Positions 4,084 through 58,530 of a DNA stretch of 58,530 bases are shown here, one piece after another. Within the stretch, counting starts at the first letter, position 1; every line of letters starts with the position of its first letter. Below the pieces are notes generated by a model. The model ran no database searches. It was not told the DNA's origin and saw only the letters and a list, made by a program, of their open reading frames with translations. A program made the position numbers and the translations under genes. The stretch lies in the IMG/VR virus record IMGVR_UViG_3300035678_000002, positions 1 through 58,530 of that record. One strand, 5' to 3'. The DNA is from a virus.

Positions 4084-4968
4084 TCAGCCCCGCAGCGCCC
4101 GCGCGACCCCCTCGGCCAGGTCGATCTTCGGCTCGTAGTACCGCCTCAGCCGTGTCGGATCCCCGACCCGGTACGCGACCCCGGCGGGCTTGTCGGCCAG
4201 GTACTCGAAGCACGGCTTGTAGCCGACCTGATCGCAGGCGATGTGCGCCAGCTCAGCCATCGACCACCCGACGCCGGTGCACAGGTTCACCGGCTCGGCC
4301 GGGTCGGCCTCCAGCACGACCTGCGCCTGCACCACGGCCAGCGCCCCGGCCACCACGTCGTCGATGTGCATCCAGTCGCGCACCTGGTTGCCGTCGCCCC
4401 AGATCACGAACGGGTTTTCCCGGCGGCGGGCACGCTCGATCAGCGCCCGGAAGGGGAAGTTCTCCGACTGGTCTTCGCCATAGCCAGAGAACGGCCGGAC
4501 CACGGTGACGGGCAGACCGGTCTTGCGGGCCTCGGCGGCCAGGCGTTCGCCGGTCAGCTTCGTCCAGCCGTACACCGAGTCGGGTTCCATGGCCCCGTCA
4601 AGCTTGATCAGGTTCTCGGCCAGCGACCCCATCGACGCCTTGACCTGGCGATGTACCGGGTAGGCGGCGCTCGACGACAGGTACAGCACCCGGCCCTGCC
4701 CGGTGCGGACCGCCCAGTCGAACATGGCGGCGTCCAGCATCAGGTTGCGAGCGAAGTGCTGCGGCTCGCCGTCGATGGCCGCCCGGTGCGGTGCCGAGGC
4801 GGCGGCGTGCACCACCAGATCCCAGCGCGCCCTGCTGGTCCGGAAGTAGTCGAGGGCGTCGTACCCGTCGGAGATGTCGATACCGGCCGTGGCCCAGCCC
4901 TGCCGGTCGAGGGCGTTGATCATGTGGCGGCCGACGAAGCCGGTACATCCCGTCACCAGCGCCCTCAC
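4084..4968 (-). CDS. NAD-dependent epimerase/dehydratase (extended SDR)
   Basis: Start GTG at 4968 overlaps the methyltransferase stop (GTGA), giving 294 residues, normal for nucleotide-sugar epimerases. The N-terminus has the NAD-binding glycine motif (VTGCTGFVG, residues 5-13). The serine region LSSSAAY lies near 98-103, followed by the catalytic Y-x3-K (YGWTK, Tyr133/Lys137). The C-terminal half has the substrate-side WMHIDD pattern. The family epimerises, dehydrates or reduces NDP-sugars. With the adjoining glycosyltransferase and methyltransferase it probably makes or tailors a sugar for virion or DNA decoration; the target is unknown. Confidence 0.85.
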   Translation of the reverse strand: MRALVTGCTGFVGRHMINALDRQGWATAGIDISDGYDALDYFRTSRARWDLVVHAAASAPHRAAIDGEPQHFARNLMLDAAMFDWAVRTGQGRVLYLSSSAAYPVHRQVKASMGSLAENLIKLDGAMEPDSVYGWTKLTGERLAAEARKTGLPVTVVRPFSGYGEDQSENFPFRALIERARRRENPFVIWGDGNQVRDWMHIDDVVAGALAVVQAQVVLEADPAEPVNLCTGVGWSMAELAHIACDQVGYKPCFEYLADKPAGVAYRVGDPTRLRRYYEPKIDLAEGVARALRG

Positions 4969-5525
4969 CGGCAGGCCCAGATCTGGTACGAGTAGCCGCC
5001 GATCGGGCGGGTGTCGACGGTGGTGTGGATGTCCGGGTTGAACCCGGCGGCGCGGAGCATCCCTCCGACGGCTTCGGCGTCCCAGCCCCACACGTGTTCG
5101 GGGTTCTGGTCGTCGGTCTCCCCGTCGGGGGTGGACAGGAGCAGGCGGCCAGCCTTCGGCCGGATGGCGCGGAGCACAGCGTCGGGGTCGTCGACGTGCT
5201 CGAGGGTTTCCGAGAGGATGAACAGGTCCACCGGGGCGATCTTCTTGATGGTCTGCTCGATGGGGCCGGTGTACGCGTAGCCGGGGGCGAAGTCGCCGAG
5301 CTGGAGGTGCGCGCCGTGGGAGTACTCCAGGCGGCGGGCGATCTCGGCGTTGCCGCAGGACAGGTCCGCGACCCGGCCCTTCGGGGGCAGTATCAGCCCC
5401 GCCATGGCCGAGGTGACGTCGACCCGGAACAGGTGGTCGTGCCAGTGCCGGTGATCGTGCGGCTTCGCGTACAGCTTCGCCAGTTCGTCGGCGGTGGGCA
5501 TAGGGCGCAGGCGGGTTCGCATCAT
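4965..5525 (-). CDS. SAM-dependent methyltransferase
   Basis: Start ATG at 5525 overlaps the upstream glycosyltransferase stop (ATGA); 186 residues. SAM-binding motif I appears as VADLSCGNAEI (about residues 52-62), with the acidic end of strand 2 near LGDF and a later LSETLEHVDD typical of class I small-molecule methyltransferases (motif II region). It lacks a target-recognition domain for DNA. Position between a glycosyltransferase and an epimerase suggests O- or C-methylation of a sugar or glycoconjugate, by inference. It could alternatively act on a protein. Confidence 0.8.
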   Translation of the reverse strand: MMRTRLRPMPTADELAKLYAKPHDHRHWHDHLFRVDVTSAMAGLILPPKGRVADLSCGNAEIARRLEYSHGAHLQLGDFAPGYAYTGPIEQTIKKIAPVDLFILSETLEHVDDPDAVLRAIRPKAGRLLLSTPDGETDDQNPEHVWGWDAEAVGGMLRAAGFNPDIHTTVDTRPIGGYSYQIWACR

Positions 5526-7977: not shown

Positions 7978-8222
7978 TGCCGCCACCACGCGATAAGGAA
8001 CAGGATGCCCCCGTCGGCGATGAGGGAGAGGGCCAGGACGGCGATGACGGCAAGGATCCCGTGCGCGTTCCAGTCCGTCGGAAGGATGGTTGTTACGGGC
8101 CGTGACCGGCGGTGGGTGCCAGGCCCGGGATTCGGGCACTCGTACTGGCGAGTAACAACCTTTTGCCCGTTTCCCGTCACGCTGCGTACACCAGGACCGG
8201 GGATGTACGGCACGTCGATCAC
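7974..8222 (-). CDS. Small membrane protein
   Basis: 82 residues. GTG at 8222 overlaps the portal stop (GTGA). A single hydrophobic segment (ILAVIAVLALSLIADGGILF) lies near the C-terminus after a soluble proline- and arginine-rich N-terminal part with one Cys. Function unknown; it is not an obvious holin because of the single late membrane span. Confidence 0.6.
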   Translation of the reverse strand: MIDVPYIPGPGVRSVTGNGQKVVTRQYECPNPGPGTHRRSRPVTTILPTDWNAHGILAVIAVLALSLIADGGILFLIAWWRQ

Positions 8223-10204
8223 GGCGTCAGCTCCCCACGGGTGGCCAGCAGCGTCGAACGCAGCAACTCCGGGTCGTGCGCGACGCCCCGGGTCATCAGC
8301 TCCGTGCAGTAGCCGCCCAGCAGCTCCTCCAGCGCGTCAGCGTCCGCCCCCAGCGTCACGGCCTGCTCGCGCACATACGTCCACGCACCGGCCAGCAGGG
8401 CGGGCACGCGGGAGTGGTCAGGCAAGACCCGGGTGTGCAGCTCATGCTTCGGCACCGGATACCGGGCGCGCTGCGGGCCGGGCACCAGGCGGCCCCCAGC
8501 CACCTCCAGCGCCCGACGTACGGCACTGTCGGCGGCGTAGAAGAGCTGCAACTCGATGAGGTCGGAGTTGATGCTGGCAGCGAGCTGCCCCAGCTTCTGC
8601 TTCTTCGGCGGCGTGACGTTGCCCGCCTCGGCGTCGGCGACGGACGGGAACTGCGGCAGGCCACGCGCTCCGGCGTCGGCCGGGTTGGTACCGGCCGTGT
8701 CGTAGCCGGGGTCGCCGGGCATCAGGTCACCCGCGCCGGGCAGCTGCGGGGGTGCGGGCGGCGCGGGCATGGAGATCGGCGGCAGGCCGAGGATCTTCTG
8801 CACGGCGGGGTCGCCCGCATAGGCGGGCTGCGCCAGGACGAGGGCCTTGACCAGGTTGTATTCCAGCTCCTTGGCGTCGGGCGCGTCGTCCTCGGTGAAC
8901 GAGGCGTTGGCGCGGGCCGCCTTGTGGCTGATCAGTTCCTTCTCGGCGAACTGGAGTGCCTGGTCGGAGCGGTTGGGCCGCACGGTGAGGGCAGCGATGT
9001 CGAACCAGAGGGTCATCTTCTCCGGGTTGACGACGCCTGCGGCCTTGAGGGCGGGCTGGAAGTAGCCGATGTTCAGGGCGTCGGCGAGCTGGATCAGCAG
9101 CGGCTCGATGTGGACCTTGATCGAGGATTCTTCGATCTGCCAGCTGGACCAGTGGTTCGACTTGCCCATGCCGGACAGCACTTCAGGCGGGATGTCCAGG
9201 CCCATGCCGAGGCGGGTGACGGCGTCGGTGCGCATCTTCGAGATGTGCTCGGAGATGGTCGAGTCGAACGTCAAGTGTTTGATCTTGTCCAGGGCCTCCA
9301 CGGCGACCTGGAGGATGATCGGCACCACGGCGGCGGCGTTGTCGCGCTGCTGCATCGACGTGGCCATGGTCCGCTGGAGCAGGTCCGCGAAGCCCTCCAC
9401 ACCCGTGCGCTGCGGAACCCCCGGGTTCTCCCCCGGGGTGCGCGGGAAGTCGATGTTGTCGGGCAGCAGCAGGATCCCGGCACCGGCCAGCCGCGAGTCC
9501 AGCTCGGCGAACACCCGCTTGGTGCACTGCTCCATCTCGCGCAGCACCGGCAGGATGGCCCGCACGGTGGAGTCGGCGGCGTCGTAGCGGCGCGGGTGCG
9601 GATTCCAGGCCCGGATCAGCAGGTCCGTCTGCGGGTTCAGCTTGTACTGCCCGCCGCCGTGGGTGATGGAGCGGCGCACCATGATGTCGTCGCCGCGCCG
9701 GTACACCTCGGACGAGGAGCACACGTACCACTTGTCGCTGCTGGGCTCGCCGTTCTGGGCCTTCTGGTAGCCCTCGGCGACGATGAACACGTCCCCGGCG
9801 ACCATCATATTGATGCCCATCAGGCGCTGGGCCTGGGCTTTCGCGGCGGGGCTGCCGAACATGGTCTCGGCGATCAGCTTGGCCTTGGCGTCGGTGACCT
9901 CGTCGCCGACCACCCCGTCGTCGGTGACCTGCGCCGCGTACATCCGGCAGCGGGAGACGGCGTTGCCGATCCAGTTGACGACGAAGCGCATCTCGCCGCA
10001 GATGTCGTAGTGGCGCCACGCCTCCCACTGCCAGCGGTGGTCGCCGAGCTTGAACATCTGCCAGCTGGCGGCGTCGCCGAGGTTGATCGGGACGGCGGCG
10101 CCGATCAGGGAGGCGCGGCGTTCGGCGGCGCGCTGGTCGAGGGCCGGGTTTCCGGTGGGGCCGAGCGTTCCGGCGGGTACGACCTTCTTCCTGCCGAACG
10201 CCAC
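8219..10204 (-). CDS. Portal protein
   Basis: 661 residues from GTG 10204, close behind GAAGGGG. The sequence has the layout of siphovirus portals: an early conserved core (W-EAWRHYDICGEMRFVVNWIGNAVSRCRMYAAQV), a wing/stem region, and a long helical and Pro-rich C-terminal part. Portals form the dodecameric DNA channel at the head vertex and dock the terminase. Length is large for the family, but such long portals occur in actinophages. Position upstream of the MuF protein supports the call. Confidence 0.88.
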   Translation of the reverse strand: MAFGRKKVVPAGTLGPTGNPALDQRAAERRASLIGAAVPINLGDAASWQMFKLGDHRWQWEAWRHYDICGEMRFVVNWIGNAVSRCRMYAAQVTDDGVVGDEVTDAKAKLIAETMFGSPAAKAQAQRLMGINMMVAGDVFIVAEGYQKAQNGEPSSDKWYVCSSSEVYRRGDDIMVRRSITHGGGQYKLNPQTDLLIRAWNPHPRRYDAADSTVRAILPVLREMEQCTKRVFAELDSRLAGAGILLLPDNIDFPRTPGENPGVPQRTGVEGFADLLQRTMATSMQQRDNAAAVVPIILQVAVEALDKIKHLTFDSTISEHISKMRTDAVTRLGMGLDIPPEVLSGMGKSNHWSSWQIEESSIKVHIEPLLIQLADALNIGYFQPALKAAGVVNPEKMTLWFDIAALTVRPNRSDQALQFAEKELISHKAARANASFTEDDAPDAKELEYNLVKALVLAQPAYAGDPAVQKILGLPPISMPAPPAPPQLPGAGDLMPGDPGYDTAGTNPADAGARGLPQFPSVADAEAGNVTPPKKQKLGQLAASINSDLIELQLFYAADSAVRRALEVAGGRLVPGPQRARYPVPKHELHTRVLPDHSRVPALLAGAWTYVREQAVTLGADADALEELLGGYCTELMTRGVAHDPELLRSTLLATRGELTP

Positions 10205-10965: not shown

Positions 10966-11265
10966 TCAGCCAGAGATCGCGTCCAGGAACACGAGCAGGG
11001 CGGGCTTGAGCCGTGCGTCCATCCCGAAGATCGCCCCCGGGATCCACGGGTGCTCCTGGTCGACTTCACGCCGGGCGGCGCGGGCGGCCTCGGCCACATC
11101 CCCATCGGACAGGAACGCGGCGACGGGCCTCATCTCCATGTCGAACGACCAGTGCCCGATGGCCTGCCGCTGCGCGAACGCGTGGTGCTTGACCATCTCC
11201 TCCGCGACGTCGACGTACGTGGCCGCCTGGTCGTCGGGGACGTCGAACACGACGGTCAGCCTCAT
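10966..11265 (-). CDS. Unknown protein coupled to the macro-domain gene
   Basis: 99 residues; ATG 11265 overlaps the macro-domain gene stop (ATGA). The N-terminus (MRLTVVFDVPDD) reads as a beta strand and the rest is alpha/beta with a helical middle. No family recognised. The overlap suggests co-expression with ADP-ribose chemistry, by inference only. Confidence 0.6.
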   Translation of the reverse strand: MRLTVVFDVPDDQAATYVDVAEEMVKHHAFAQRQAIGHWSFDMEMRPVAAFLSDGDVAEAARAARREVDQEHPWIPGAIFGMDARLKPALLVFLDAISG

Positions 11266-11900
11266 CGGGTCACCTCGGCCTGGGCCAGCGCGATGCGGTA
11301 GGTGTCCTCGTCGAACACGACCAACCGTACGGTCTTCACCTGCGTGTTCGCGGAGCGGATCGCCGTCAGGGCCTGCTTGACCGCGTCGTCCTTGGGCCAG
11401 CCGTACACACCGGCCGAGATCAGCGGGAAGGCCACAGTCCGGGCGCCGGTGACGTCAGCGGCCTCGAGCGACTGGGTGTAGCAGCTGCGCAGCACGTCCG
11501 ACAGGTCCTTGCGCGGGTCGTACACGGGGCCGACGGTGTGGACCACCCACTGCGCGGGCAGGGCGCCTGCGGTGGTGATCAGGGCGTGTCCGGCGGGGAG
11601 GCCGTCGGGCAGGTCGCGGCGCAGTTCCTTGCATTCCGCCAGGATGGCGGGGCCGCCCGCGCGGTGGATCGCCCCGTCCACTCCGCCGCCGCCGAGCAGG
11701 CTGGACTTGGCGGCGTTGACGATGACGTCGACCTTCTCGGTGGTGATGTCGCCCTGCACGATCTCGATCCGCAGGGTGGGGCGGGAGTAGAACCAGTGCG
11801 GGAACCAGGCGAGGGCCGTGATGCCGAGGATGATCGGGGCCAGCCACCACCAGCCTGCGCCGGTGGGGGCCACGATCCCGGTCAGGGCTTGAGTCTCCAT
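11262..11900 (-). CDS. Membrane-anchored macro-domain protein (ADP-ribose binding or hydrolysis)
   Basis: 212 residues, ATG 11900 behind GAGGAGG. A transmembrane segment at about 16-36 (WWWLAPIILGITALAWF) precedes a macro domain. This has the family start IVQGDITTEKVDVIVNAA and the loop LLGGGGVDGAIHRAGGP (Asp75). The second Asn of the NAAN motif is Lys (NAAK, 62-65), which is unusual and may alter catalysis. Macro domains of this type bind ADP-ribose and remove it from proteins or O-acetyl-ADP-ribose. It has its own promoter. Anti-defence or counter-toxin use is plausible given the phage ADP-ribosyltransferase, but is inference. Confidence 0.85.
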   Translation of the reverse strand: METQALTGIVAPTGAGWWWLAPIILGITALAWFPHWFYSRPTLRIEIVQGDITTEKVDVIVNAAKSSLLGGGGVDGAIHRAGGPAILAECKELRRDLPDGLPAGHALITTAGALPAQWVVHTVGPVYDPRKDLSDVLRSCYTQSLEAADVTGARTVAFPLISAGVYGWPKDDAVKQALTAIRSANTQVKTVRLVVFDEDTYRIALAQAEVTR

Positions 11901-11927
11901 GTCGTCCTCCTCAATCTGTCTGTGCAC

Positions 11928-11957
11928 AGCATACAGCCTCCCCGCCCACCAGGGCAA
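11928..11957 (-). promoter_or_regulatory. Promoter, TTGCCC-18-TATGCT, ACAG class
   Basis: Minus strand TTGCCC (11957-11952), 18 bp, TATGCT (11933-11928), 8 nt, ACAG, then GAGGAGG before the macro-domain gene. AGCCTCC/GGAGGCT flanks give the same fused inverted repeat as at 10915. Confidence 0.7.
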
Positions 11958-11979
11958 GGAGGCTGCAACCTTCAGTGAA

Positions 11980-12726
11980 TCAGCTGGCGGCGGTCGCGCT
12001 GGCCACGTTGTCGGCGGCGGTGACCGTGGCCTCGTCGATGGGGTCGACGTCGAAGACCTCGTAGCCGGTCCGGCCGTTGTCCCAGCGCCAGCCCGCCACA
12101 CGCTGCGCGCTGACCTCGTCGTACGCCTCCACGACCGTGCGCATGTCGGCCGCCACGGGGCGCGTGACCGTGAACTTCTTGCGCTCCGGGATCGGGGCCA
12201 GCCCGTACGACGCGAGCACCTTGTTGGCGCCGATGTCGCAGTACTTGGGACCGGCGATGTGCCCGAGCAGGATGATCTCGCGCAGCATGTCCAGGGTGGC
12301 CTGCACGGTGGTCGGGACGTCCGGGTCGGTCACGCTCGGGTCGGGGTCTTCCGGGCCGGAGGTGAACACGGGGGTGTCGAGGGCGACGGCGGCGGAGATG
12401 ACCAGCTGCCGGGTGCCGACCAGGCGGGCTTCGAGCAGCTTCAGGGCCTCGACCCGGCTCCCGGCGTTGACGCCGATCTCCGCCGTGCCGGAGACGGGGA
12501 CCTGGATGAGATACGTGGAGCTGGTGCCGATCAGCTCGGTGATGCCCAGGGCGGTGAGCTTCTTGTTGGCCCACTCGGCGGTGATCTCGCCCTGGAGGTG
12601 CCAGTCACGGGCCGACGCGGCGATGTACTCGCGCAGGGCGGCCAGGCTGGTCGACTCGGGCAGGGCGAGGTTGGCGTTCTCCGTCACCCACTCGGTCCAG
12701 GTGAGGGCCGGGTCTGCGTACTGCAT
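11980..12726 (-). CDS. Unknown protein, 248 residues
   Basis: ATG 12726 is chosen because TTGGAGGAGATCAC precedes it; an upstream extension would run through the tRNA-like gene. The sequence is mixed alpha/beta. It contains a central acidic loop (SGPEDPDPSVTDPDVP) and a K-K-F-T-V-T-R-P strand, with no transmembrane segment, and ends in an Ala-rich tail. The style (long strands, acidic loop, no catalytic motif) would fit a virion or decoration protein, but no family was recognised. Own ACAG-class promoter. Confidence 0.65.
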   Translation of the reverse strand: MQYADPALTWTEWVTENANLALPESTSLAALREYIAASARDWHLQGEITAEWANKKLTALGITELIGTSSTYLIQVPVSGTAEIGVNAGSRVEALKLLEARLVGTRQLVISAAVALDTPVFTSGPEDPDPSVTDPDVPTTVQATLDMLREIILLGHIAGPKYCDIGANKVLASYGLAPIPERKKFTVTRPVAADMRTVVEAYDEVSAQRVAGWRWDNGRTGYEVFDVDPIDEATVTAADNVASATAAS

Positions 12727-12803: not shown

Positions 12804-12891
12804 TGGCGAGGGCAGGATTCGAACCTGCGTCCCAGACCCTGATAGCCGCACTATCCGGGGTCCGTGCTCTGGGCCGCTGAGCTATCTCGCC
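12804..12891 (-). tRNA. tRNA-like gene with extended anticodon arm
   Basis: 88 nt. Acceptor GGCGAGA/CCTCGCC, D stem GCTC/GAGC, and T arm GCAGG-TTCGAAT-CCTGC are good. The anticodon region is about 14-15 nt too long: an outer CGGACCC/GGGTCTG stem carries an inner GATA-GTGCGGC-TATC hairpin. The inner 7-nt loop would present GCG (Arg) with U at position 33, but two stacked stems are not standard. Possibly a tRNA with a small insertion or a decoy. Confidence 0.6.
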
Positions 12892-12990
12892 TGGAACCCT
12901 GCCGTGGAGGTACGCATTCGGACACCACCACAACGCCCGTGAGCCATGTTGGGCCGCGTTCTGCGCCCAGTGCACGACAGGGTCAACAAC

Positions 12991-13022
12991 ATCCCCGGGG
13001 CGTTAGCCAGGGCGCCGGGGAT
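12991..13022 (-). terminator. Hairpin terminator
   Basis: ATCCCCGG/CCGGGGAT, 8 bp, with further GC p airing inside, directly after the minimal tRNA-like element. It is GC-rich without a long U run, as usual in actinobacteria, and may work in both directions. Confidence 0.55.
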
Positions 13023-13024
13023 CG

Positions 13025-13068
13025 TGGACCGGTGGGGAGTCGAACCCCGTGATGCCCAACTCCGGCCC
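13025..13068 (-). ncRNA. Minimal tRNA-like element (acceptor plus T arm only)
   Basis: GGGCCGG pairs with CCGGTCC as a 7-bp acceptor stem. A T arm with loop TTCGACT follows a 12-nt linker, and no D or anticodon arm is present (about 43 nt). It is bounded upstream by element copy 4 and downstream by a terminator. Could be a minihelix-like RNA or an eroded tRNA. Confidence 0.4.
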
Positions 13069-13077
13069 GACCATCAT

Positions 13078-13091
13078 GATCGAAAACGTCG
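13078..13091 (+). repeat. Dispersed 14-bp element, copy 4
   Basis: GATCGAAAACGTCG, intergenic, antisense to the local minus-strand transcript, between the 13097 gene and the minimal tRNA-like element. Confidence 0.65.
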
Positions 13092-13096
13092 TGCTG

Positions 13097-13420
13097 TTAC
13101 GTGCTGGCCTGCTCGACCGCCTCGTAGCAGGCGGCAGTGCACGGCGCGTCCAGGTGGGCGTGCGGCGGACCGATCCGCCTCGCCACCAGGATGCTGCCCT
13201 TACCGAACCGGCCGCCCTCGATGCGCACCTCCCCGACCTCCAGATCCACGGAGATGCTGAAATCACGCGAGTTCAGATACCGCTTGCAGTGGTCGTACAG
13301 GTAGTCGGCCACCCGGTTCTCATCGTCGGCGAACGTGGCCGGGACGTGCACGGTCAGCGCGGCCTCCGGCGTGGTGCCGGAGCGGCCGATCCGCTCGAAC
13401 TTCACGATCAGGTCGCTCAT
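13097..13420 (-). CDS. Unknown protein, 107 residues
   Basis: ATG 13420 follows ATAGGAGGAGAT, a near-ideal ribosome site, so longer upstream starts are rejected. The sequence alternates strands (LIVKFERIG, ALTVHVPATF, SISVDLEVGEVRIEGG), suggesting a small beta-rich fold. No family recognised. Last gene of a five-gene run from 14103. Confidence 0.65.
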   Translation of the reverse strand: MSDLIVKFERIGRSGTTPEAALTVHVPATFADDENRVADYLYDHCKRYLNSRDFSISVDLEVGEVRIEGGRFGKGSILVARRIGPPHAHLDAPCTAACYEAVEQAST

Positions 13421-13428
13421 ATCTCCTC

Positions 13429-13536
13429 CTATGACCACCAGCGGCCTCGCGGGCGCCGGTTGAAGAACCAGTTCCAGGTGATGTAGCGCGGCACGCACCG
13501 CCTCGCCGGAACACCGCCGACCTTCACGACCCTCAC
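13429..13536 (-). CDS. Small basic Trp/Arg-rich peptide
   Basis: 35 residues from GTG 13536, which overlaps the stop of the CCPM-family gene (GTGA). The C-terminus NWFFNRRPRGRWWS is strongly basic and aromatic. Supported by the overlap and by a clear ribosome site for the next gene immediately after its stop. Function unknown; too short to exclude a chance reading frame. Confidence 0.4.
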   Translation of the reverse strand: MRVVKVGGVPARRCVPRYITWNWFFNRRPRGRWWS

Positions 13537-13790
13537 GCGAACCGCGCGGCGAGCAGCCGCACCGACATGGCGGCGTATCTCTTCGCCAGACGGAACCGGC
13601 CGCGCTTCACGGACTTCACGGCGGCGACCATCGGGCAGCAGCTCGTGTCCCCGCTATGGCCCGTGCCGCCGCCGGAGCTGGTCGGCCGGTACGCAGGGCC
13701 AGGCCCCACACCACCACGGGACCGCTGCCGATGAGGCGGGCGGGCGGCACCCTGCGGGCGTGACTGCCTGCGCCTCCTGTCGTTCCCCAT
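13533..13790 (-). CDS. Small basic CCPM-family protein, paralogue of 53009
   Basis: 85 residues, ATG 13790 behind GGGGGAG. The C-terminal 35 residues starting CCPMVAAVKSVKRGRF closely match the plus-strand gene at 53009-53224. The N-terminus is arginine-rich and variable. The conserved part has a Cys pair followed by a basic helix and a hydrophobic end (AAMSVRLLAARFA), which might bind nucleic acid or a membrane. Function unknown. Confidence 0.6.
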   Translation of the reverse strand: MGNDRRRRQSRPQGAARPPHRQRSRGGVGPGPAYRPTSSGGGTGHSGDTSCCPMVAAVKSVKRGRFRLAKRYAAMSVRLLAARFA

Positions 13791-13792
13791 CG

Positions 13793-13981
13793 CTACTCCC
13801 CCTCGACCTCGGTGACCGGACCCCAGCGCAGTACCTGGCTCCAGCTCACACCGGACTCCCAGCCCACCGCGCTCCAGTAGTGGCCCTCCTCGCCCATGCG
13901 GGTCCAGAGCGTCCCCGTCCGCGTCTTGACCTTCCGCACGTCCGGCGGCGGGTCGGTGAGGCGCGGCCAGGTGCGGGGCAC
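13793..13981 (-). CDS. Unknown small protein
   Basis: 62 residues from GTG 13981, one codon after the preceding stop. Contains PPPDVRKVKTRTGTLW and several Trp in the second half, ending in acidic VTEVEGE; beta-rich. Its stop is immediately before the CCPM-family gene. No family recognised. Confidence 0.5.
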   Translation of the reverse strand: MPRTWPRLTDPPPDVRKVKTRTGTLWTRMGEEGHYWSAVGWESGVSWSQVLRWGPVTEVEGE

Positions 13982-13983
13982 GG

Positions 13984-14103
13984 CTACGTCCTCTGTCCGC
14001 TGGCGCGGGCCAGCCGGGCGGCGATGCCGTTCACCTGCTTGGTGCTGGCGTTGGCGGCGATGGCCTTGCCGAGCGCCGCCCACAGCTTGTCGACTGCGGT
14101 CAT
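13984..14103 (-). CDS. Small helical protein
   Basis: 39 residues, ATG 14103 preceded by GGAGGAGGAG. Composition and spacing (VDKLWAALGKAIAANAS) indicate an amphipathic helix pair. First gene of the run down to 13097. Function unknown. Confidence 0.55.
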   Translation of the reverse strand: MTAVDKLWAALGKAIAANASTKQVNGIAARLARASGQRT

Positions 14104-14307
14104 GATCTCCTCCTCCTGGGCTACGTGGTAGGTCGCCGGGACACGGGTCCACGCCGTGGCCACGGGGGACACCCCTAGGTGCATCCCGGCGACCCGCCGA
14201 CCAGCGCTTTTCCGTTCGGGTGTCGCACCCGCACCGTACTGGCTGGTCGACAGCACCCAGCGTTTGCTCCGCCGCAGGGGCGGGGGCATCTCTGCCCGGG
14301 TGCATCC

Positions 14308-14377
14308 GTGCCGTGCGGGGAGTTGAACCCCGTCTTCCCCGGGTTAGGGGGCGCCCCACCTCCAGGGCTTCACGGCG
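14308..14377 (-). tRNA. tRNA-like gene, possible Val (AAC)
   Basis: 70 nt. Acceptor pairs GCCGTG/CACGGC with a mismatch at the end; D arm GCCC-TGGAGGTG-GGGC; T arm CGGGG-TTCAACT-CCCCG. The anticodon arm has a CCCC/GGGG stem and 7-nt loop CTAACCC, giving AAC with U33. The most canonical of the set, but short, with a 4-bp anticodon stem. Confidence 0.5.
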
Positions 14378-14504
14378 GTACTGGGCCAGTTCGGGTCTCT
14401 GCGCATCCGCAGCTCACCGGTGTATCCCATGTCTGGGCGGTGGGTCCTTGCTGGCCGTTCCTGTTACCAGCTGGCCTCTCACCAGCCCTCCGCCGATATC
14501 ACTG

Positions 14505-14559
14505 GGCGGTCCGCGCCCCGTCTTTCCGGGGTGTCTGAGGGGTGCGGCAGGGGCGGACC
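14505..14559. other. Strong inverted repeat
   Basis: GGTCCGC(g)CCCC and GGGGCGGACC arms pair with one bulge around a loop that itself holds CCCC/GGGG pairing. Lies between tRNA-like elements; RNA structure or terminator. Confidence 0.45.
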
Positions 14560-14588
14560 CTTACTGCTTCAGCGCACCGCGCCTCTCG

Positions 14589-14660
14589 TGACCCTGGACG
14601 GATATGCGCCGCCGACCTCCTGCCGTGAGGCAGGTGCTCTATCTGCTGAGCTACAACGCC
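14589..14660 (-). tRNA. Degenerate tRNA-like element, Val (CAC)-like 5' half
   Basis: The 5' half is a good tRNA: GGCGTTG, D arm GCTC-AGCAGATA-GAGC, stem CCTGC/GCAGG. The anticodon loop is only CTCACG, six nt, containing CAC. The T loop is CGCATAT rather than TTCGANN and the acceptor 3' strand pairs poorly. Probably decayed or noncanonical. Confidence 0.4.
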
Positions 14661-14726
14661 GACCGCTTACTCAAGGCGGCCACTCCAGTTACCTACGGGT
14701 CGAGTGGTCCCGTAGGCCCTTCGCGA

Positions 14727-14839
14727 GGGGAGAGCAGGTCCTGCCCCTGCATATCTGACGGTGCTGTCCATGGATGCTTCCGGCTGCATTGCCCGGACAC
14801 AGCTTGCTCCGTCAGCGCTCTGCGTTGAGCTACCTCCCC
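14727..14839 (-). tRNA. tRNA-like element with large anticodon insertion
   Basis: 113 nt. Acceptor GGGGAGG/TCTCCCC and D stem GCTC/GAGC are intact, and GCAGG/CCTGC forms a T-type stem but with loop GGCAGGA. The anticodon position holds a long structured insert closed by CTGACGG/CCGTCAG, with further nested pairing (GCTGT..CC/GGACAGC and ATGC/GCAT). Intron-like insertion or non-translational tRNA mimic. Confidence 0.4.
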
Positions 14840-14844
14840 GAGGT

Positions 14845-14896
14845 GTGAGAGGCGGCGCCGGGATAGACCCCGCCGATGCTGCCGCCTACCTCTCAC
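14845..14896. other. Strong inverted repeat upstream of tRNA-like element
   Basis: GTGAGAGGCGGC pairs with GCCGCC(ta)CCTCTCAC, 12 bp plus a 2-nt bulge, with an inner CGGG/CCCG. It directly precedes the 5' end of the element at 14839 and could guide processing. Confidence 0.45.
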
Positions 14897-15002
14897 GTTC
14901 GCGTCTGGTGTGGCCTCATCCCCCGAGGCGTGGGGGCATCACCTGACGCTTGCACCTGTGTTTCTGTGGGGTGTCACATCCGGTGCCCCGATGCGTCTTC
15001 CG

Positions 15003-15097
15003 TGGGAAGAGCAGGATTCGAACCTGCGGCCTTCTTACCGGCCCCTCGTCCGGCTGACCCCTGAGCGGGGTGCGCTCTACCGCTGAGCTATCTCCCC
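15003..15097 (-). tRNA. tRNA-like gene with expanded anticodon/variable region
   Basis: 95 nt. Acceptor GGGGAGA/TCTTCCC, D arm GCTC-AGCGGTA-GAGC and T arm GCAGG-TTCGAAT-CCTGC are near perfect. Between D and T arms are 46 nt instead of about 23, folding as CCCC-GCTCA-GGGG, CCGG/CCGG and GGCC/GGCC hairpins. No 7-nt loop with U33 is evident. Class II with long variable arm is the alternative, but the anticodon stem still fails. Confidence 0.6.
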
Positions 15098-16867: not shown

Positions 16868-18289
16868 TTAGCCGTACGGGGAGCTGGAGGGCATCCAGTC
16901 GTTGGGCGACGGGGCGGCGATGCGGACCAGCTTGTTCTCCTTGCCCATCAGGAACAGCCCGGCCTGCACCAGGGCGTCGATCCGGTCCGGGCTCTTGGCG
17001 TCCTCGGGCACCCACGTGCACATCTGGTCTTCCAGCTCGATGAACGTGCCGACGTGATGCCAGCGGTTCTGCTCGTAGCGGGAGGCGACCGGTTCGGCGC
17101 GCAGCTTCTTGCCCGCCAGCGAGGTGACCTCCTTGACGGGCGGGGGGCCGGGCTCGAACAGGCCTTCCTTCTGCATCTCGGCGTAGGCGTCGGTGACGAC
17201 CTGCATGAGCCACTTCTTGCCCATGTTCGTCTCGATGATCAGCCAGGTGGCGTCGTAGCGCAGGAACATCTCCCAGGCGCGGCGAGCGGCGGCGTGCCCG
17301 ACGATCTTCTTGGTCCAGTCGGCGAGCACGTAATCCTCGTTGCCGTGGTCGCGGCCGCAGGCGAGCAGGCCGGTCTCGTCGCCCGCGCCGGTGGCGCCGG
17401 GGTCCATGGAGATGACGACGGTCTTCAGTTCGGGCAGCTCGGGCGCCTTGATGCGGTTATTTTCGATCATGGTGCGGGACCACAGGGCGCCCTCGATGTC
17501 TTCGAGGAGGTACCCGTACAGCTCCTGGAGTCCGGCCCGGGTGCCCTCGTAGATCTTCTTCAGCTCGTCGACGACCTCGCGGGAGAGGTTCGCGATGTTG
17601 TCGAAGATCGAGCCGGTGGTGATGACGATTGTGCCGTCGGTCTCGTGCTGCCACTTGATCAGCAGCTTGATCGGCTTCGGGGTGGTGGTGACCACCACGC
17701 GCGGCCGGTCGTTGATCAGCGGGGCGCGCATCGAGGGCAGGATGCCCTCGAACCAGGCGCCCCAGGTGTAGCGCCACTTCGCCAGCTCGTCGAGCCAGGC
17801 CCCGGCGGCGTTGTAGCCACGGCCGACGTCGTCGTTGTCGGCGCCCTCGAAGTAGATGATCTGCCCGGAGTTGAACTCGATCATCAGCTTGGGCGACTTG
17901 CGGTACTCGAAGTCGCGGTGGTTCTCCATGCCCATCCGGCGCAGCACCGACAGCAGGCCCGAGTTGCCCTCGATACATGCCGTACGGCAATCGTTCAGGG
18001 TCTCGGCGATGCACAGCCACTCGGTGCGCTGGCCGAACGCGTCGACCGGGTGCTTGAACACGCGGTCGAGGAGGTCTTCGGCGCCGGTGCGGGTCTTGCC
18101 CCAGCCACGGCCGGAGCGGATCAGCCAGACCAGCCAGTCGCCGGGCGGGGCGAACTGCTCGGGGCGCCCGACCCACCACCAGGCGCCCTTCAGGATGTCG
18201 TCGAGGGTTTCGCGGTTCTGTTCCCGCAGCCAGGTCCGGCGCAGGGTGGCGGGCAGCAGGGCCAGCTTCTGGGCGGCGGACAGGCTCAC
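16868..18289 (-). CDS. terL: Terminase large subunit
   Basis: 473 residues from GTG 18289, which overlaps the stop of the small upstream gene (GTGA). A TTG at 18364 in frame would add 25 Pro/Gly-rich residues and is less likely. ATPase domain: Walker A SGRGWGKT (about 59-66) and Walker B AWLDELA. Nuclease domain: ISMDPGATG with the first metal Asp, ETNMGKKW in the middle, and SPDRIDALVQA with the late Asp. The enzyme cuts and pumps DNA into proheads at the portal. Carries element copy 5 in frame. Confidence 0.93.
   Translation of the reverse strand: MSLSAAQKLALLPATLRRTWLREQNRETLDDILKGAWWWVGRPEQFAPPGDWLVWLIRSGRGWGKTRTGAEDLLDRVFKHPVDAFGQRTEWLCIAETLNDCRTACIEGNSGLLSVLRRMGMENHRDFEYRKSPKLMIEFNSGQIIYFEGADNDDVGRGYNAAGAWLDELAKWRYTWGAWFEGILPSMRAPLINDRPRVVVTTTPKPIKLLIKWQHETDGTIVITTGSIFDNIANLSREVVDELKKIYEGTRAGLQELYGYLLEDIEGALWSRTMIENNRIKAPELPELKTVVISMDPGATGAGDETGLLACGRDHGNEDYVLADWTKKIVGHAAARRAWEMFLRYDATWLIIETNMGKKWLMQVVTDAYAEMQKEGLFEPGPPPVKEVTSLAGKKLRAEPVASRYEQNRWHHVGTFIELEDQMCTWVPEDAKSPDRIDALVQAGLFLMGKENKLVRIAAPSPNDWMPSSSPYG
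17455..17468 (-). repeat. Dispersed 14-bp element, copy 5
   Basis: GATCGAAAATAACC, in the terminase gene, sense, encoding MIENN. Confidence 0.6.
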
Positions 18290-18438
18290 GTTAGGTGCCC
18301 CAACGAAGCTGCCAGCTCCGCGAGTTGTTCCCGTCGCCGGGCTCGGTAGGCGTACGCAGGGCAAGAGTGTGTGCGCGGTGCCCGGGGGTCACCCAGCCGC
18401 CCGGCACTCGGGCGACCCCCGGCCGCGCTCGCCCTCAC
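18286..18438 (-). CDS. Small basic protein between the terminase subunits
   Basis: 50 residues from GTG 18438 overlapping the small-terminase stop, ending with a TGA that overlaps the large-subunit GTG. Both junctions are GTGA, so it links the two genes translationally. C-terminal half (AYRARRREQLAELAASLG) is a convincing amphipathic basic helix. The N-terminal half is Pro/Arg-rich. Function unknown. Confidence 0.45.
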   Translation of the reverse strand: MRASAAGGRPSAGRLGDPRAPRTHSCPAYAYRARRREQLAELAASLGHLT

Positions 18439-19169
18439 TGCGGAGGAGGTGCAGGAAGGGCGGCGTCCAGCTCGCGAGTCGCCTCCTCCGCGCTCGCGGT
18501 CAGCTCCTGGAACCCGGCGGCGATCTGCTCCGGGCTCATCCGCTGCACCATCGCGTCCAGGGTCTTCATGATGTTGTCGTGCTGCACGCCGACCTCGACG
18601 CGCACCTCCGGCTTACCGGCGGCGTCGGTCTTCGTGGTGGCCGCGACGGTGACCGAGGTAGCCGAGGTGGCGCCCTTGTTCAGCGTCTCGAGGCCCAGCG
18701 CGGCGCGCTCGATGCGGGCGGCGGTGTCGAGCATCAGCACCAGGGCGTGGGGGCTGATGGAGTCGACGTCGAGGGTCTTCAGCCGCTCGAGGGCCTTGTC
18801 CATCAGCGCGCGGGCGGCCTTGGAGTGCTTGCGGGCCATCTCCTCGCGGGCGTCCTGGAGACGGATGGCGGCGATGCGGTCCTGCTCGGCGTCCCATAGC
18901 CCGGCCCGCGCCACCCACTTGCCGTAGCGGGCGATGCGGGCGATGCTGCCGTACTTCAGCGGGCTCATCGAGGCGAGCTGGGCGACGGTGCGGATGCGGC
19001 CCATGTCCCGGTACATCAGGAACAGGCCGTGGTTGCGGGGCAGTTCGCCGGGCTGGCGGTCCCAGGCGTCGATGGACGGGTCCAGCTCCAGCTCCCGGCG
19101 GGCGAGGGAGTCGAGCACTTCGGGCGTACGGCTGTGGTCGTTGCTGGTCTTGCGGTTCCGGCGGGTCAT
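18435..19169 (-). CDS. terS: Terminase small subunit-like protein
   Basis: 244 residues, ATG 19169 behind GGAGGAG. Residues about 46-100 (FLMYRDMGRIRTVAQLASMSPLKYGS then IARYGKWVARAGLWDAEQD) match the helix-turn-helix plus WxxRAxxWD pattern of actinophage small terminases. The rest is helical, with an oligomerisation-like centre, and a Pro-rich end (PAPPPQ). It would recognise the packaging site and recruit the large subunit. Position directly upstream of terL supports the call. Confidence 0.75.
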   Translation of the reverse strand: MTRRNRKTSNDHSRTPEVLDSLARRELELDPSIDAWDRQPGELPRNHGLFLMYRDMGRIRTVAQLASMSPLKYGSIARIARYGKWVARAGLWDAEQDRIAAIRLQDAREEMARKHSKAARALMDKALERLKTLDVDSISPHALVLMLDTAARIERAALGLETLNKGATSATSVTVAATTKTDAAGKPEVRVEVGVQHDNIMKTLDAMVQRMSPEQIAAGFQELTASAEEATRELDAALPAPPPQ

Positions 19170-25322: not shown

Positions 25323-26240
25323 ATGCCGAAGCACGATTCCCTGGCCGCCGCCCTGGCCGCGTTCCAAGCCGAGCTGCCGAAGCTCCGCAAAGACGAGACC
25401 GCCAAGGTCACCGGGGAGAGCAAGAGCGGCGCCAAGATCAGCTACTCGTACGGTTACGCCGGTCTGGACGCTGTGGTCGAGGCCGTCCTGCCCGCGCTCG
25501 GCAAGCACGGCCTGTCCATCACCTCCAAGAGCGTCATCGACGCCAGTGGCGGCTTCATGCTGGAGGTGGCGCTGCTGCACGAGGGCGGCGACCGGGAGAT
25601 CGGCTACTGGCCACTGCCCGACCCCCGCCGGGCCGGGCCGCAGGACATCGGCTCGTCGTACACCTACGGCCGCCGGTACCTGACCCTGGCTCTGACCGGC
25701 ACCTTCCCCGGCGGGGAGGACGACGACGGCCAGAAGGCCCAGCAGTCGGCCCGCGATCGCTGGGAGGACGCCCGGCCCCGCACGGATCAGGCGTTCGACC
25801 AGCACCGCCGGGGCGTCAACGCCGACGAGCCGCAGGAGCCGCCCAAGCCGCCGAAGACGTCCTGGACCGACGCCGAGGTGTTCGGCTACCAGGCGAAGAT
25901 GGTCACCTCCGAACTGGACTTGGCCGTCAAGGGCTACGACTGGATGGCCGGTAACGGCCTGCACGACCGCAAGGTCGGCAACCCGGCCGACGCCGCCGAG
26001 CCGCCGCGCACCGCGACGGACATCATGGCGTCCCGCCTCGGCGATGAGGCGCTGGCCCCCGACGCCACTCTCGACAGCCTCCACCACCTCAAGACCATCG
26101 CGACGGACCGGGCGCTGCTGAAGATCCAGGTCTCCGACACGGAGACCCTGGACCAGGTGCTCTTCGAGGCGCGGGAGCTGGCCCAGCACGCGGAGGTCGC
26201 GGCGGCTAAGGCCGACACGCCTGATCCGCAGGCTGAGTGA
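25323..26240 (+). CDS. erf: ERF-family single-strand annealing protein
   Basis: 305 residues, ATG 25323 behind AAGGAGG. Residues 1-145 show the ERF pattern: an N-terminal helix, then ISYSYGYAGLDAVVEAVLPALGKHGLSI, followed by DIGSSYTYGRRYLTLALTG. ERF proteins form rings and anneal complementary single strands in phage recombination. A Pro/Glu-rich linker leads to a second helical domain (230-300). It has its own promoter and is followed by small genes. No partner exonuclease was recognised. Confidence 0.88.
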   Translation: MPKHDSLAAALAAFQAELPKLRKDETAKVTGESKSGAKISYSYGYAGLDAVVEAVLPALGKHGLSITSKSVIDASGGFMLEVALLHEGGDREIGYWPLPDPRRAGPQDIGSSYTYGRRYLTLALTGTFPGGEDDDGQKAQQSARDRWEDARPRTDQAFDQHRRGVNADEPQEPPKPPKTSWTDAEVFGYQAKMVTSELDLAVKGYDWMAGNGLHDRKVGNPADAAEPPRTATDIMASRLGDEALAPDATLDSLHHLKTIATDRALLKIQVSDTETLDQVLFEARELAQHAEVAAAKADTPDPQAE

Positions 26241-27419: not shown

Positions 27420-27488
27420 GGGCCTGTAGCTCATTGGTGGAGCGACCGCGTAGCGGAAGGTAGGCGGGTTCGATTCCCGTCAGGTCCA
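27420..27488 (+). tRNA. tRNA-like gene with truncated anticodon arm
   Basis: 69 nt. Acceptor GGGCCTG/CAGGTCC, D arm GCTC-ATTGGTG-GAGC and T arm GCGGG-TTCGATT-CCCGT are canonical. The anticodon arm folds as CCGC-GTA-GCGG with only a 3-nt loop, giving no standard 7-nt loop. If GTA were read it would be Tyr. Lies in a 301-bp gap (27329-27629) that otherwise contains only the hairpin at 27558 and element copy 8. Confidence 0.6.
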
Positions 27489-52128: not shown

Positions 52129-52305
52129 ATGAAGGTCACCATGACCCTTAGGGTCGAGGTCGAGGTCGAGGCGGCAGACCGCGAGCTGGTCGCGGCCGGA
52201 GCGGACGTCCTCTACGAGACGGGGAAGGCGCTCGACTACTGGTTCGACCACACGGACCGGCCGATGTCCGCCCAGTCCGTCGTCATCCTGGCGGACGAGG
52301 AATGA
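52129..52305 (+). CDS. Small beta/helix protein
   Basis: 58 residues, ATG 52129 behind GGAGGAGG. Strand KVTMTLRVEVEVEA, helix LVAAGADVLYETGKAL, strand SVVILADEE. Unknown function; stop overlaps DUF1810 start. Confidence 0.55.
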   Translation: MKVTMTLRVEVEVEAADRELVAAGADVLYETGKALDYWFDHTDRPMSAQSVVILADEE

Positions 52306-52997
52306 GCATCCTGACGCAACGCACACCGGGCCTGGATCGGTTCCACGCCGCCCAGGCCCACCAGGGCATCTACCGGCAGGCGCTGCTGGAGATCCGCTCG
52401 GGCGTCAAGCGCAACCACTGGATGTGGTTCGTCTTCCCGAAGATGGCCACCAGTGTGGGCGGCAGCCGCATGAGCCGCCACTACGCCATCGCCGACCGGG
52501 CCGAGGCTGCCGCCTACCTCGCCGACCCGGTGCTGCGGCTGCGGCTCTACAACTGCACGGTCGGGGTGCTCAAGCACAACCGGCTGATGTTCCGCTATCC
52601 CGACGACGGCAAGCTGCGGGCGTCGATGACCTTGTTTGCGCAGGTCGCCGAGGATCCGACGAAGCTGAACGAGGTGCTGGCCAAGTTCTTCAACGGCCCA
52701 GACCGGCGCACCCTGGACCTGCTGAAGGCGCAGGAGGAGGGCACCGAGGACAGGTACTGGGAGAGCGTGCGCCCGACCTTCCCCCGGCCCCAGGCCCGCA
52801 CCTTGTTCGAGCCGGACCGGGAGACGCAGGAGGAGTTCGACCCGTGGACCCGGGAGCAGGTGGAGTCGTTCGTCAGGGGCTGCGGGCTCAGTGGGGCGGC
52901 GTTCCGGCTGATGGTGGGCGCGTGGATGGCGGACCAGGATCGGTCGTACGACGCGGGCTGGAACGCTCACGCCGATGCGAACACCTACAACGGATAG
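52302..52997 (+). CDS. DUF1810 domain protein
   Basis: 231 residues, ATG 52302 (ATGA overlap). Residues 10-150 match DUF1810: LDRFHAAQAHQGIYRQAL, HWMWFVFPKMA, SRHYAIADRAEAAAYLADP, a family of unknown biochemistry found across bacteria. About 75 extra C-terminal residues form a separate helical part. Carried on an accessory-type plus-strand cassette, so not essential for the virion by position. Confidence 0.8.
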   Translation: MSILTQRTPGLDRFHAAQAHQGIYRQALLEIRSGVKRNHWMWFVFPKMATSVGGSRMSRHYAIADRAEAAAYLADPVLRLRLYNCTVGVLKHNRLMFRYPDDGKLRASMTLFAQVAEDPTKLNEVLAKFFNGPDRRTLDLLKAQEEGTEDRYWESVRPTFPRPQARTLFEPDRETQEEFDPWTREQVESFVRGCGLSGAAFRLMVGAWMADQDRSYDAGWNAHADANTYNG

Positions 52998-57079: not shown

Positions 57080-57301
57080 TCAAATGCCCTTCTGATCAGG
57101 CAGATCCGCCGGATCATCCCAGGACTGCCGGGGACGCTTCTCGATCTCCCCGATCAGGTGCTGGATACCGAGCGGCACCTGAGCCCAGGACTCGGCGTCG
57201 CCGGTCCCGTCGAGGATCCGCCGCCGCTCGTCGGGTGTCGCGTCGTAGGTGCCGAGCACCTGCGTCACCCGCTCGTAGAGGGCCATCTTCGCCGGTGTCA
57301 C
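57080..57301 (-). CDS. Small protein coupled to the giant gene
   Basis: 73 residues from GTG 57301 overlapping the giant gene stop (GTGA). Helical (MALYERVTQVLGTYD, TPDERRRILDGTGDAES) and ends WDDPADLPDQKGI. Co-expressed with the NUDIX-ART protein; could be its chaperone or inhibitor by position only. Confidence 0.55.
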   Translation of the reverse strand: MTPAKMALYERVTQVLGTYDATPDERRRILDGTGDAESWAQVPLGIQHLIGEIEKRPRQSWDDPADLPDQKGI

Positions 57302-58530
57302 TGGGCCTCCTGGATGATCAGCACGGAGCGGTTGAGCCAGTTGAAGGCGGGCTGACCGGGCTTGGCGACGTGGCGCGCCCAACCCCCGGAGGACGTGTGA
57401 TGGGACTGGATCTCGATACCGTCGACACCCTTCGCGGCGGCCCAGCGGCCAGGGTCGTACAGGGTGCCCTCCTCGTAGGTGTTGCCCTTCGCCTTCGAGG
57501 AGCGCGAGCTGGCGGCGTGCGCCTCACCTTCCACCTTGTCGTAATGCTCCGTGACCGCGCTCTTGGGGATCAGGATCCGGGAGATGCTGTTCTTCGTGCC
57601 GTCCGCGTACTGCGTGGCCACCGACTTCTGCGTGGCGAGGTAGTAGCCGTTGCCGAAGATGCCCTTGCCGTAGTAGGCAGGCCCGGAGCGCATCTCCTCG
57701 TTGATCTGCGCGGCGGTCTTGCCACCGGCGCGGTAGTTGCCGCCCTTCACGCCGCGCCACACCTCGATGTAGTCGCCGGTCGCAAGGAGCCGGTCGACCT
57801 CCTTCTTGGAGGCGACGGTCGGGGTGTCGTCGAAGCCCTGCATGCTGCCGATCGCCGCGAGGCGTCCGTCTGCCGTCTTGGCGTCGTACTGCTTGCGGGC
57901 CTGCTTCACGTCCTGGCGGAGCTTGTCGATGTTCGTCTTGTCGGAGACGAGGTTGCGGCCCTTGGACTGCTTGTGCGGGTGCGGCCAGGCGTTGAAGCTG
58001 GCGGGCGCCTGGCGGCCGCCGGACGGCAGGTTCAGCCGCCCCAGCCGCTTGGTGACGGGGCCGGGCCGGGTGACCTGGCCCAGCGTCTGGCCGGTGCCCT
58101 GCGGATACAGGGAGATGACGTTCTGCTCGAGCTTGCCGCCCGCGATGGGCGCGTGTAGCTGGCCGCTCTTGTCGAGGGCGCGGATCTCATCGATCGTCAT
58201 CCACTTCGCGTCCGACGTTTCGGCGCGGGCGTGGGCGGTGGTCAGGTTCGGCTTGATCATCGTCGAGACCTGCGCGGCCACCGTCGTGTACTTCCACGAG
58301 TGGTTCGGCACCGAGAACGTGTGGTCGCCGTGGACCAGGGCGTCCTTGAGGGCGTCGGCCTTGAGGCCCAGCTCTTCGATCGTCTCGCGGGCCGCGCCCT
58401 GGTGCGGGGTCTCCTTCGAGTCGCTGGCGCCGCCGGGGAACGTCCACTTGCCGGGGTCGGAGATGGCGGGGCCGCGCTGCACCATCAGGTAGCGCTTCTC
58501 GCCGGTCTGCGGGTCGACGTGCTGGAGCAG
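57298..58530 (-). CDS. Giant protein, C-terminal part: NUDIX hydrolase plus ADP-ribosyltransferase domains
   Basis: Open to the window edge; continues from base 1 in frame if one g is shared. The first 110 residues are a NUDIX domain with the box GASDSKE-x7-RETIEELGL, matching G-x5-E-x7-RE-x2-EE-x-G-x apart from Thr at the third position. The last 200 residues look like an ADP-ribosyltransferase: YIEVWRGVKGG (Arg), GIFGNGYYLATQKSVATQYA (NAD-binding turn), and YEEGTLYD (Glu). NUDIX enzymes hydrolyse NDP-X such as ADP-ribose or NAD; ART domains transfer ADP-ribose to targets. Such pairs occur in phage polyvalent proteins. Confidence 0.85.
   Translation of the reverse strand: MLQHVDPQTGEKRYLMVQRGPAISDPGKWTFPGGASDSKETPHQGAARETIEELGLKADALKDALVHGDHTFSVPNHSWKYTTVAAQVSTMIKPNLTTAHARAETSDAKWMTIDEIRALDKSGQLHAPIAGGKLEQNVISLYPQGTGQTLGQVTRPGPVTKRLGRLNLPSGGRQAPASFNAWPHPHKQSKGRNLVSDKTNIDKLRQDVKQARKQYDAKTADGRLAAIGSMQGFDDTPTVASKKEVDRLLATGDYIEVWRGVKGGNYRAGGKTAAQINEEMRSGPAYYGKGIFGNGYYLATQKSVATQYADGTKNSISRILIPKSAVTEHYDKVEGEAHAASSRSSKAKGNTYEEGTLYDPGRWAAAKGVDGIEIQSHHTSSGGWARHVAKPGQPAFNWLNRSVLIIQEAQ

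Follow-up and report, generated by a model that had tools for sequence, protein, structure and literature searches.

The laboratory tRNA scaffold of Ponchon and colleagues, in which the acceptor, T and D arms of a tRNA are retained while an inserted hairpin-based RNA replaces the anticodon stem-loop, demonstrates that this architecture works in bacteria as a vehicle for recombinant RNA (PMC3753655). Here we describe an array of tRNA-like elements with a similar plan in IMG/VR virus record IMGVR_UViG_3300035678_000002, a 58,530-base sequence (69% GC; hereafter the window) from an uncultured phage, where the cluster lies between the terminase and portal genes and on the same (-) strand as both. 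The laboratory scaffold is engineered, whereas the units in this phage and its relatives (the clade) are natural, arrayed, and have cassettes that are exchanged between scaffolds. Our favoured reading, to which we give slightly better than an even chance, is that the array consists of non-decoding, tRNA-scaffolded RNAs with exchangeable cassettes, the units probably serving as stable carriers for other RNAs.

Among natural relatives that could be tested, the nearest is rnaC of phage T4. Both rnaC and rnaD (species 1 and 2), stable RNAs of unknown function, were confirmed as late RNAs by Northern blot (PMC9697503) and are encoded beside a tRNA cluster; the 3' portion of rnaC (139 nt) is a T arm with the loop TTCGAAT. 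However, a cloverleaf with a D arm is not clear in the fold that we obtained for rnaC, and it represents a single locus, where no module moves between scaffolds. Ordinary phage tRNA arrays share with the clade their one-strand clustering, their acceptor, D and T arms, and a C74 tail often without encoded CCA, but have normal anticodon loops in 158 of 160 cases, while ~91% of clade units are without a canonical anticodon arm. Inserts are also present in the tRNAs of Lak megaphages, where they interrupt tRNAs with assigned anticodons and are putative introns (PMC6784885), in contrast to clade units, which are not restored by excision. A search of the literature, with subscription papers mostly outside its coverage, found no description of such arrays, and we provisionally regard this one as new, as a variant of phage tRNA-like RNA.

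tRNA-like elements and the loss of the anticodon arm

Seven elements were recognized in the window:

15003-15097, (-) strand: Element A, acceptor, D and T arms intact, central domain M3 at window 15028-15073; Rfam tRNA 49.4 bits
14727-14839, (-) strand: Element B, 7-bp acceptor, D arm, 7-bp anticodon stem bearing module X; T loop GGCAGGA
14589-14660, (-) strand: Element C, class-2 tRNA-like, 6-nt loop CTCACG, A18/G55 elbow variant; Rfam 40.2 bits
14308-14377, (-) strand: Element D, near-normal, 6-bp acceptor, loop CTAACCC; ARAGORN 'Val AAC'
13026-13068, (-) strand: Element E, 43-nt minihelix of acceptor stem and T arm only
12804-12891, (-) strand: Element F, with a long hairpin continuing the anticodon stem, its domain at window 12829-12865; Rfam tRNA 46.7 bits
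27420-27489, (+) strand: Element G, second genomic site, CCGC-GTA-GCGG arm (4-bp stem, 3-nt loop); Rfam 43 bits

The original prediction had located A, B, C, D and F, and Rfam, ARAGORN and folding agree with it on their positions and anatomy and place all five on the (-) strand; E and G had been missed. As it had described, A and F combine intact acceptor, D and T arms with an expanded anticodon domain. In A the centre comprises an ACCCC-GCTCA-GGGGT hairpin with a 5-nt loop and a second hairpin ahead of the T arm; in F it is CGGACCC..GATAG-TGCGG-CTATC..GGGTCTG, making a loop of 22 nt versus the usual 7. The ~50 nt nested hairpin reported for B is also there, as module X (window 14762-14807, GCAAGCTGTG..GCAATGCAGCCGGAAGCATCC..CAGCA) on its 7-bp anticodon stem, and the minimum free energy (MFE) fold of B contains the acceptor, D, extended anticodon and T arms. 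Element C does have the 6-nt loop ascribed to it, along with one acceptor mismatch and an MFE fold that is not a cloverleaf, but its altered T loop, read previously as decayed, belongs to a covarying set of D and T loops (see below). Within the window only D, correctly called nearly normal, approaches a canonical anticodon arm. Orthologues of D are present in five related contigs (L008, L012, L021, L026, L037), that of F at 7659-7746 of L008, and the minihelix of E in L008 and L039. Between A and B the window also holds a hairpin with GTGAGAGG..CCTCTCAC ends (14848-14899, (-) strand), and L011 has one resembling it immediately ahead of a tRNA-like unit.

Elements A, F, C and G exceed the gathering score of RF00005 (29 bits), while B and D are not reported as tRNA by Rfam. 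ARAGORN labels G as tRNA-Ala. Like E, domains of the mascRNA/tmRNA type (RF01684, RF00023) have an acceptor and T arm without an anticodon arm, but the weak matches of D and E to these models cover the acceptor and T arm only and score far under the family thresholds. Identity with tmRNA fails on the same ground (20.3 bits versus a gathering score of 47); ARAGORN detected no tmRNA in the window, and no tag-peptide frame was found.

A portal search yielded 37 relatives and an alignment-based search 80, all sampled as metagenomic contigs. These were scanned with a descriptor that requires the acceptor, D arm and T arm and leaves the centre unconstrained. Elements occur 1.2-7 kb upstream of the portal gene, on the sense strand, in most contigs with at least 68% portal identity and enough upstream sequence; across all clade loci the scan gave no match on the opposite strand and none downstream of portal. 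Relatives with 55% portal identity or less gave no elements, apart from two doubtful matches in L101 without the TAGCTC D arm. The 263 kb upstream of portal contain 122 copies of TAGCTC and the 426 kb downstream contain 3, and these counts, together with the empty strand and side in the scan, indicate that the elements are not chance matches. In its final form the catalogue comprises 102 non-redundant elements from 35 contigs, all of them upstream of portal, and Rfam tRNA matches were found somewhere in all 17 full-length relatives tested.

Across the catalogue the central region (base 26 to 48) ranges from 9 to 151 nt. A canonical arm (5 bp, 7-nt loop, U33) is present in 9 of 102 elements, several of them of the CTAACCC class of Element D; the anticodon region is expanded in 50 and the arm absent or truncated in 4. 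Some class-2 units carry their insert in the D loop instead. ARAGORN calls have abnormal loops in 40 of 88 clade cases, versus 2 of 160 in seven ordinary arrays (T4 and six metagenomic). As read from these sequences, the anticodon domain of most units is missing, shrunken or taken over by another structured RNA, such that codon decoding is impossible for them. It had been suggested that the genes contain small introns; on that view they would encode decoding tRNAs whose anticodon arm is interrupted by an intron or other intervening sequence. Introns are known from Lak phage tRNAs (PMC6784885), and low-GC contigs in our own data do have excisable inserts. Excision of one segment, however, restores a canonical anticodon arm in 0 of 42 expanded clade elements versus 9 of 38 in the low-GC set, and units with 6-, 5- or 3-nt loops, or with no arm, could not be spliced into tRNAs, leaving introns as the least probable explanation of all those considered.

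Selection on the acceptor, D and T arms

Because the catalogue presupposes paired stems, acceptor pairing was tested on TAGCTC/T-arm pairs found without an acceptor rule. Among 85 such pairs, all seven acceptor pairs form in 60 and six of seven in 17 (77/85 with at least 6/7), which is not seen in shifted controls. Compensatory change in the odd arms of homologous loci, which the original prediction had proposed to look for, is found both in module M3 (7 pairs, below) and in class 2, where an alignment of 18 sequences has changes on both sides at 10 of 21 pairs (acceptor 4, anticodon stem 5, T 1), a result reached in 0 of 500 shuffles. Among class-2 units the loop is a shared non-decoding one, CTCACG in most of them, yet the acceptors covary; these changes therefore postdate loss of the anticodon. 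The tertiary contacts behave similarly: at the elbow contact 18-55, T55 is present with 90 of 90 D loops containing GG and G55 with 11 of 12 lacking it, and the Levitt pair 15-48 is G-C in 47 elements and A-T in 31; the p-values for covariation ignore shared ancestry, and the 18-55 change is seen in at least three element types.

At the 3' end, C74 is present in 100 of 102 elements (a first acceptor pair C-A was counted here as a 6-bp acceptor, with the A as base 73). An encoded CCA is almost absent, as it often is from ordinary phage tRNA genes, and where those are without it C74 is likewise mostly present; the units thus bear the normal 3' signature of phage tRNA genes. Conservation of C74 and of the elbow would, indirectly, be in keeping with tRNA-like maturation. 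Judging from these patterns, the acceptor, D and T arms, the elbow contacts and C74 are kept by selection in most units.

It is against this background that decay of an old tRNA array, the null view of the original prediction, has to be weighed. Most units are non-decoding, and several score weakly in ARAGORN and Rfam, as decay would have it. Yet compensatory and tertiary covariation across many relatives, including acceptor changes among class-2 units with common non-decoding 6-nt loops, the retention of C74, and presence in 17/17 full-length relatives together lead us to reject it, with only a very slight probability remaining. Consistent distortion of one arm had been attributed to selection or repeated insertion, and both occur.

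The same asymmetry bears on whether the units are decoys. Decoys for anticodon-cleaving nucleases, as first proposed, do not fit in that form: it is the acceptor/T/D half that is conserved, and the anticodon loop is usually missing or altered. A modified version, in which the units divert host toxins or defence enzymes acting on the acceptor end or elbow (e.g. CCA-end-modifying toxins) and have dropped the anticodon domain to stay out of translation, would explain why the top half is conserved and the decoding half lost, and phage tRNAs have previously been proposed to counter tRNA-targeting defences (PMC10264068). It leaves unexplained, however, the recurring structured modules in the discarded arm, and we think it unlikely. 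Of the three options first offered for these elements, that of non-translational mimics describes them best.

Central modules and their exchange

The 54 long central domains include eight similarity clusters of 2-6 members; module families are few and small. Some clusters are positional orthologues or units with D-loop inserts; others are found on different acceptor stems. The M3 family, to which the centre of Element A belongs, occurs on several acceptor stems and at two genomic sites, with compensatory changes at 7 pairs (0/500 shuffles); at one stem position C:G, U:A and A:U alternate around a conserved loop. Module X of Element B is borne by three different scaffolds, recurring on other acceptor stems in L015 and in L077/L078/L081, while in L040 a scaffold of the L078 type has a bare GCAA loop where the insert would be. 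M1 forms a junction fold, and 8 of its pairs are compensatory across 6 sequences. Hairpins with 7-nt loops ending in GATCA also recur upstream of portal in L020, L025, L039, L076, L077 and L113, several of them within the M1 domain. Two contigs retrieved through a pattern rather than their portal add to this: L163 has M3, and L214 an M4-like domain.

Comparison of close genomes suggests how such a distribution arises. The window and its nearest full-length relative (G001/L005) share 96.5% DNA identity over the terminase region, but their alignment is interrupted at the central domain (window 15063-15028): at this first array site the flanks and T arm match around unlike centres, M3 for the window and M4 for L005. 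Matching flanks at the second site (27420) enclose the 3-nt-loop unit in the window and M3 in G001, and occupants differ between like flanks in G001, G002 and G007. On this genomic evidence the sites are stable and their occupants turn over, the same module being found at different sites in close relatives. Homologous recombination between the conserved arms may swap modules, with the Erf-like annealing protein encoded in the window as a possible link.

Breakpoints between relatives fall inside or adjoining elements and the array lies between the terminase and portal genes, both of which would suit a role at the DNA level, the repeated arms being sites of recombination, packaging (cos/pac) or integration. 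Covariation of RNA type, with G-U pairs and tertiary contacts, argues against such a role, as does the distance of the unit at 27420 from the packaging genes; we consider it highly improbable, if a little less so than decay.

The main rival to our favoured reading is that the units are mere punctuation, processing signals for RNase P and RNase Z that separate the small mRNAs of a polycistronic late transcript, with a centre that is unread and free to vary. The only universal features are the acceptor, T arm and elbow, i.e. those that tRNA-maturation enzymes read, anticodon arms being dispensable, and the units are interspersed with small open reading frames on the terminase/portal strand. Punctuation also accounts better for the arm-less units. 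It does not predict module families with conserved loops and compensatory stems on different scaffolds, nor a class-2 CTCACG hairpin retained across divergent phages, and on balance we regard it as somewhat unlikely.

Several observations nonetheless count against carriers with cassettes. Units without an anticodon arm have nothing to display, and 23 of the 54 long central domains are singletons in our sample, a pattern equally expected if an unconstrained loop drifted freely. No Rfam family matched the modules in six relatives at E<0.2, except tRNA and one weak CRISPR-repeat match, and comparison with E. coli rRNA and the phage's own genome gave no convincing conserved similarity. In the case of rRNA mimicry or antisense, M1 does match the complement of E. 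coli 16S over 14 nt, but the sequence there is variable among M1 copies, and other matches are short; we rejected this candidate.

If the units are indeed carriers, they would be co-transcribed with neighbouring genes, cut at the 5' end by host RNase P, trimmed at the 3' end to about C74 by RNase Z or exonucleases, and given CCA. The resulting compact, nuclease-resistant, tRNA-protected RNAs would persist and present their modules, as the laboratory scaffold does. The modules might then act on host factors as decoys or inhibitors, most plausibly in counter-defence, although this last step is more weakly inferred than the others. Our first guess that they are decoy or inhibitor RNAs is made because their conserved loops, compensatory stems and turnover of occupants in near-identical genomes resemble a component of host-phage conflict.

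Gene context, wider occurrence and significance

The array is set among the following genes, and the window also encodes major head and tape-measure genes:

8219-10204, (-) strand: portal gene
16868-18364, (-) strand: terminase large subunit gene
18435-19169, (-) strand: terminase small subunit gene
25323-26240: Erf-like annealing protein

The closest cultured portal is that of Actinoplanes phage phiAsp2 (38% identity), in whose terminase-portal stretch no tRNA-like element was found; a DNA similarity search against cultured phages gave no match for the window, and searches of genome contigs found no prophage or host relatives of this phage. GC content (69%) and portal affinity suggest Actinomycetota as the host group. 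A scan of window 12-17 kb for promoters and terminators gave no signal exceeding shuffles. Shortly downstream of the array is a macro-domain protein (11262-12101, (-) strand; Pfam PF01661, E=1e-37), possibly an ADP-ribose-related counter-defence gene. Outside the main structural genes are a DUF1810 protein (52302-52997, (+) strand), a NUDIX protein (57298-58485, (-) strand) and an NAD-dependent epimerase (4084-5091, (-) strand).

When scaffolds with centres of 45-75 nt were sought by pattern, 75 of the matches listed were readable, on contigs of 31-71% GC, a few of these from the clade; at least 6/7 acceptor pairs form in 65 of these 75. Some, again among the matches listed, become decodable tRNAs on excision of an insert (9/38 low-GC), akin to the Lak introns. 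Most are unrestored by a single excision, and expanded, apparently non-decoding scaffolds thus probably extend beyond the clade. Two groups of contigs merit separate mention. Decodable Asn GTT, Thr TGT and Lys TTT tRNAs whose anticodon stem is interrupted in its 5' strand by an insert of 39-53 nt (L135, L147, L148, L161, L165, L171, L182, L185) mostly share in that insert a short stem and an A/T-CAGCAAT-like motif, and the inserts have the appearance of a family of miniature tRNA introns, found mainly in low-GC phages. Non-decoding expanded tRNA-likes of other phages (L156, L166, L195, L197 and L201, L202) have their own conserved centres (GCTCCCGCAGTCCGGATTGAACAACAG.. and AGGCCGGGTGATGGCGACGTCATCC..).

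It is tempting to speculate that the clade possesses a natural cassette system, in which tRNA-shaped cartridges for anti-host RNA modules are matured by host enzymes and reshuffled by recombination between arms, and that, with the scaffolds of unrelated phages, these constitute a general class of phage effector RNA. We advance this broader proposal tentatively, as one that may well not hold.

The reason that phages carry tRNA genes is a long-standing open question. Genes of the kind described here are tagged by tRNA finders as undetermined or of the wrong isotype, as by ARAGORN in this case. That their decoding half is dispensable, while the half read by maturation enzymes is tightly selected, implies that 'phage tRNA' is separable from 'translation'. 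Should the modules prove to be anti-host RNAs, the array would be a natural, evolvable counterpart of tRNA-scaffold technology and a new place in which to seek RNA-based counter-defence.

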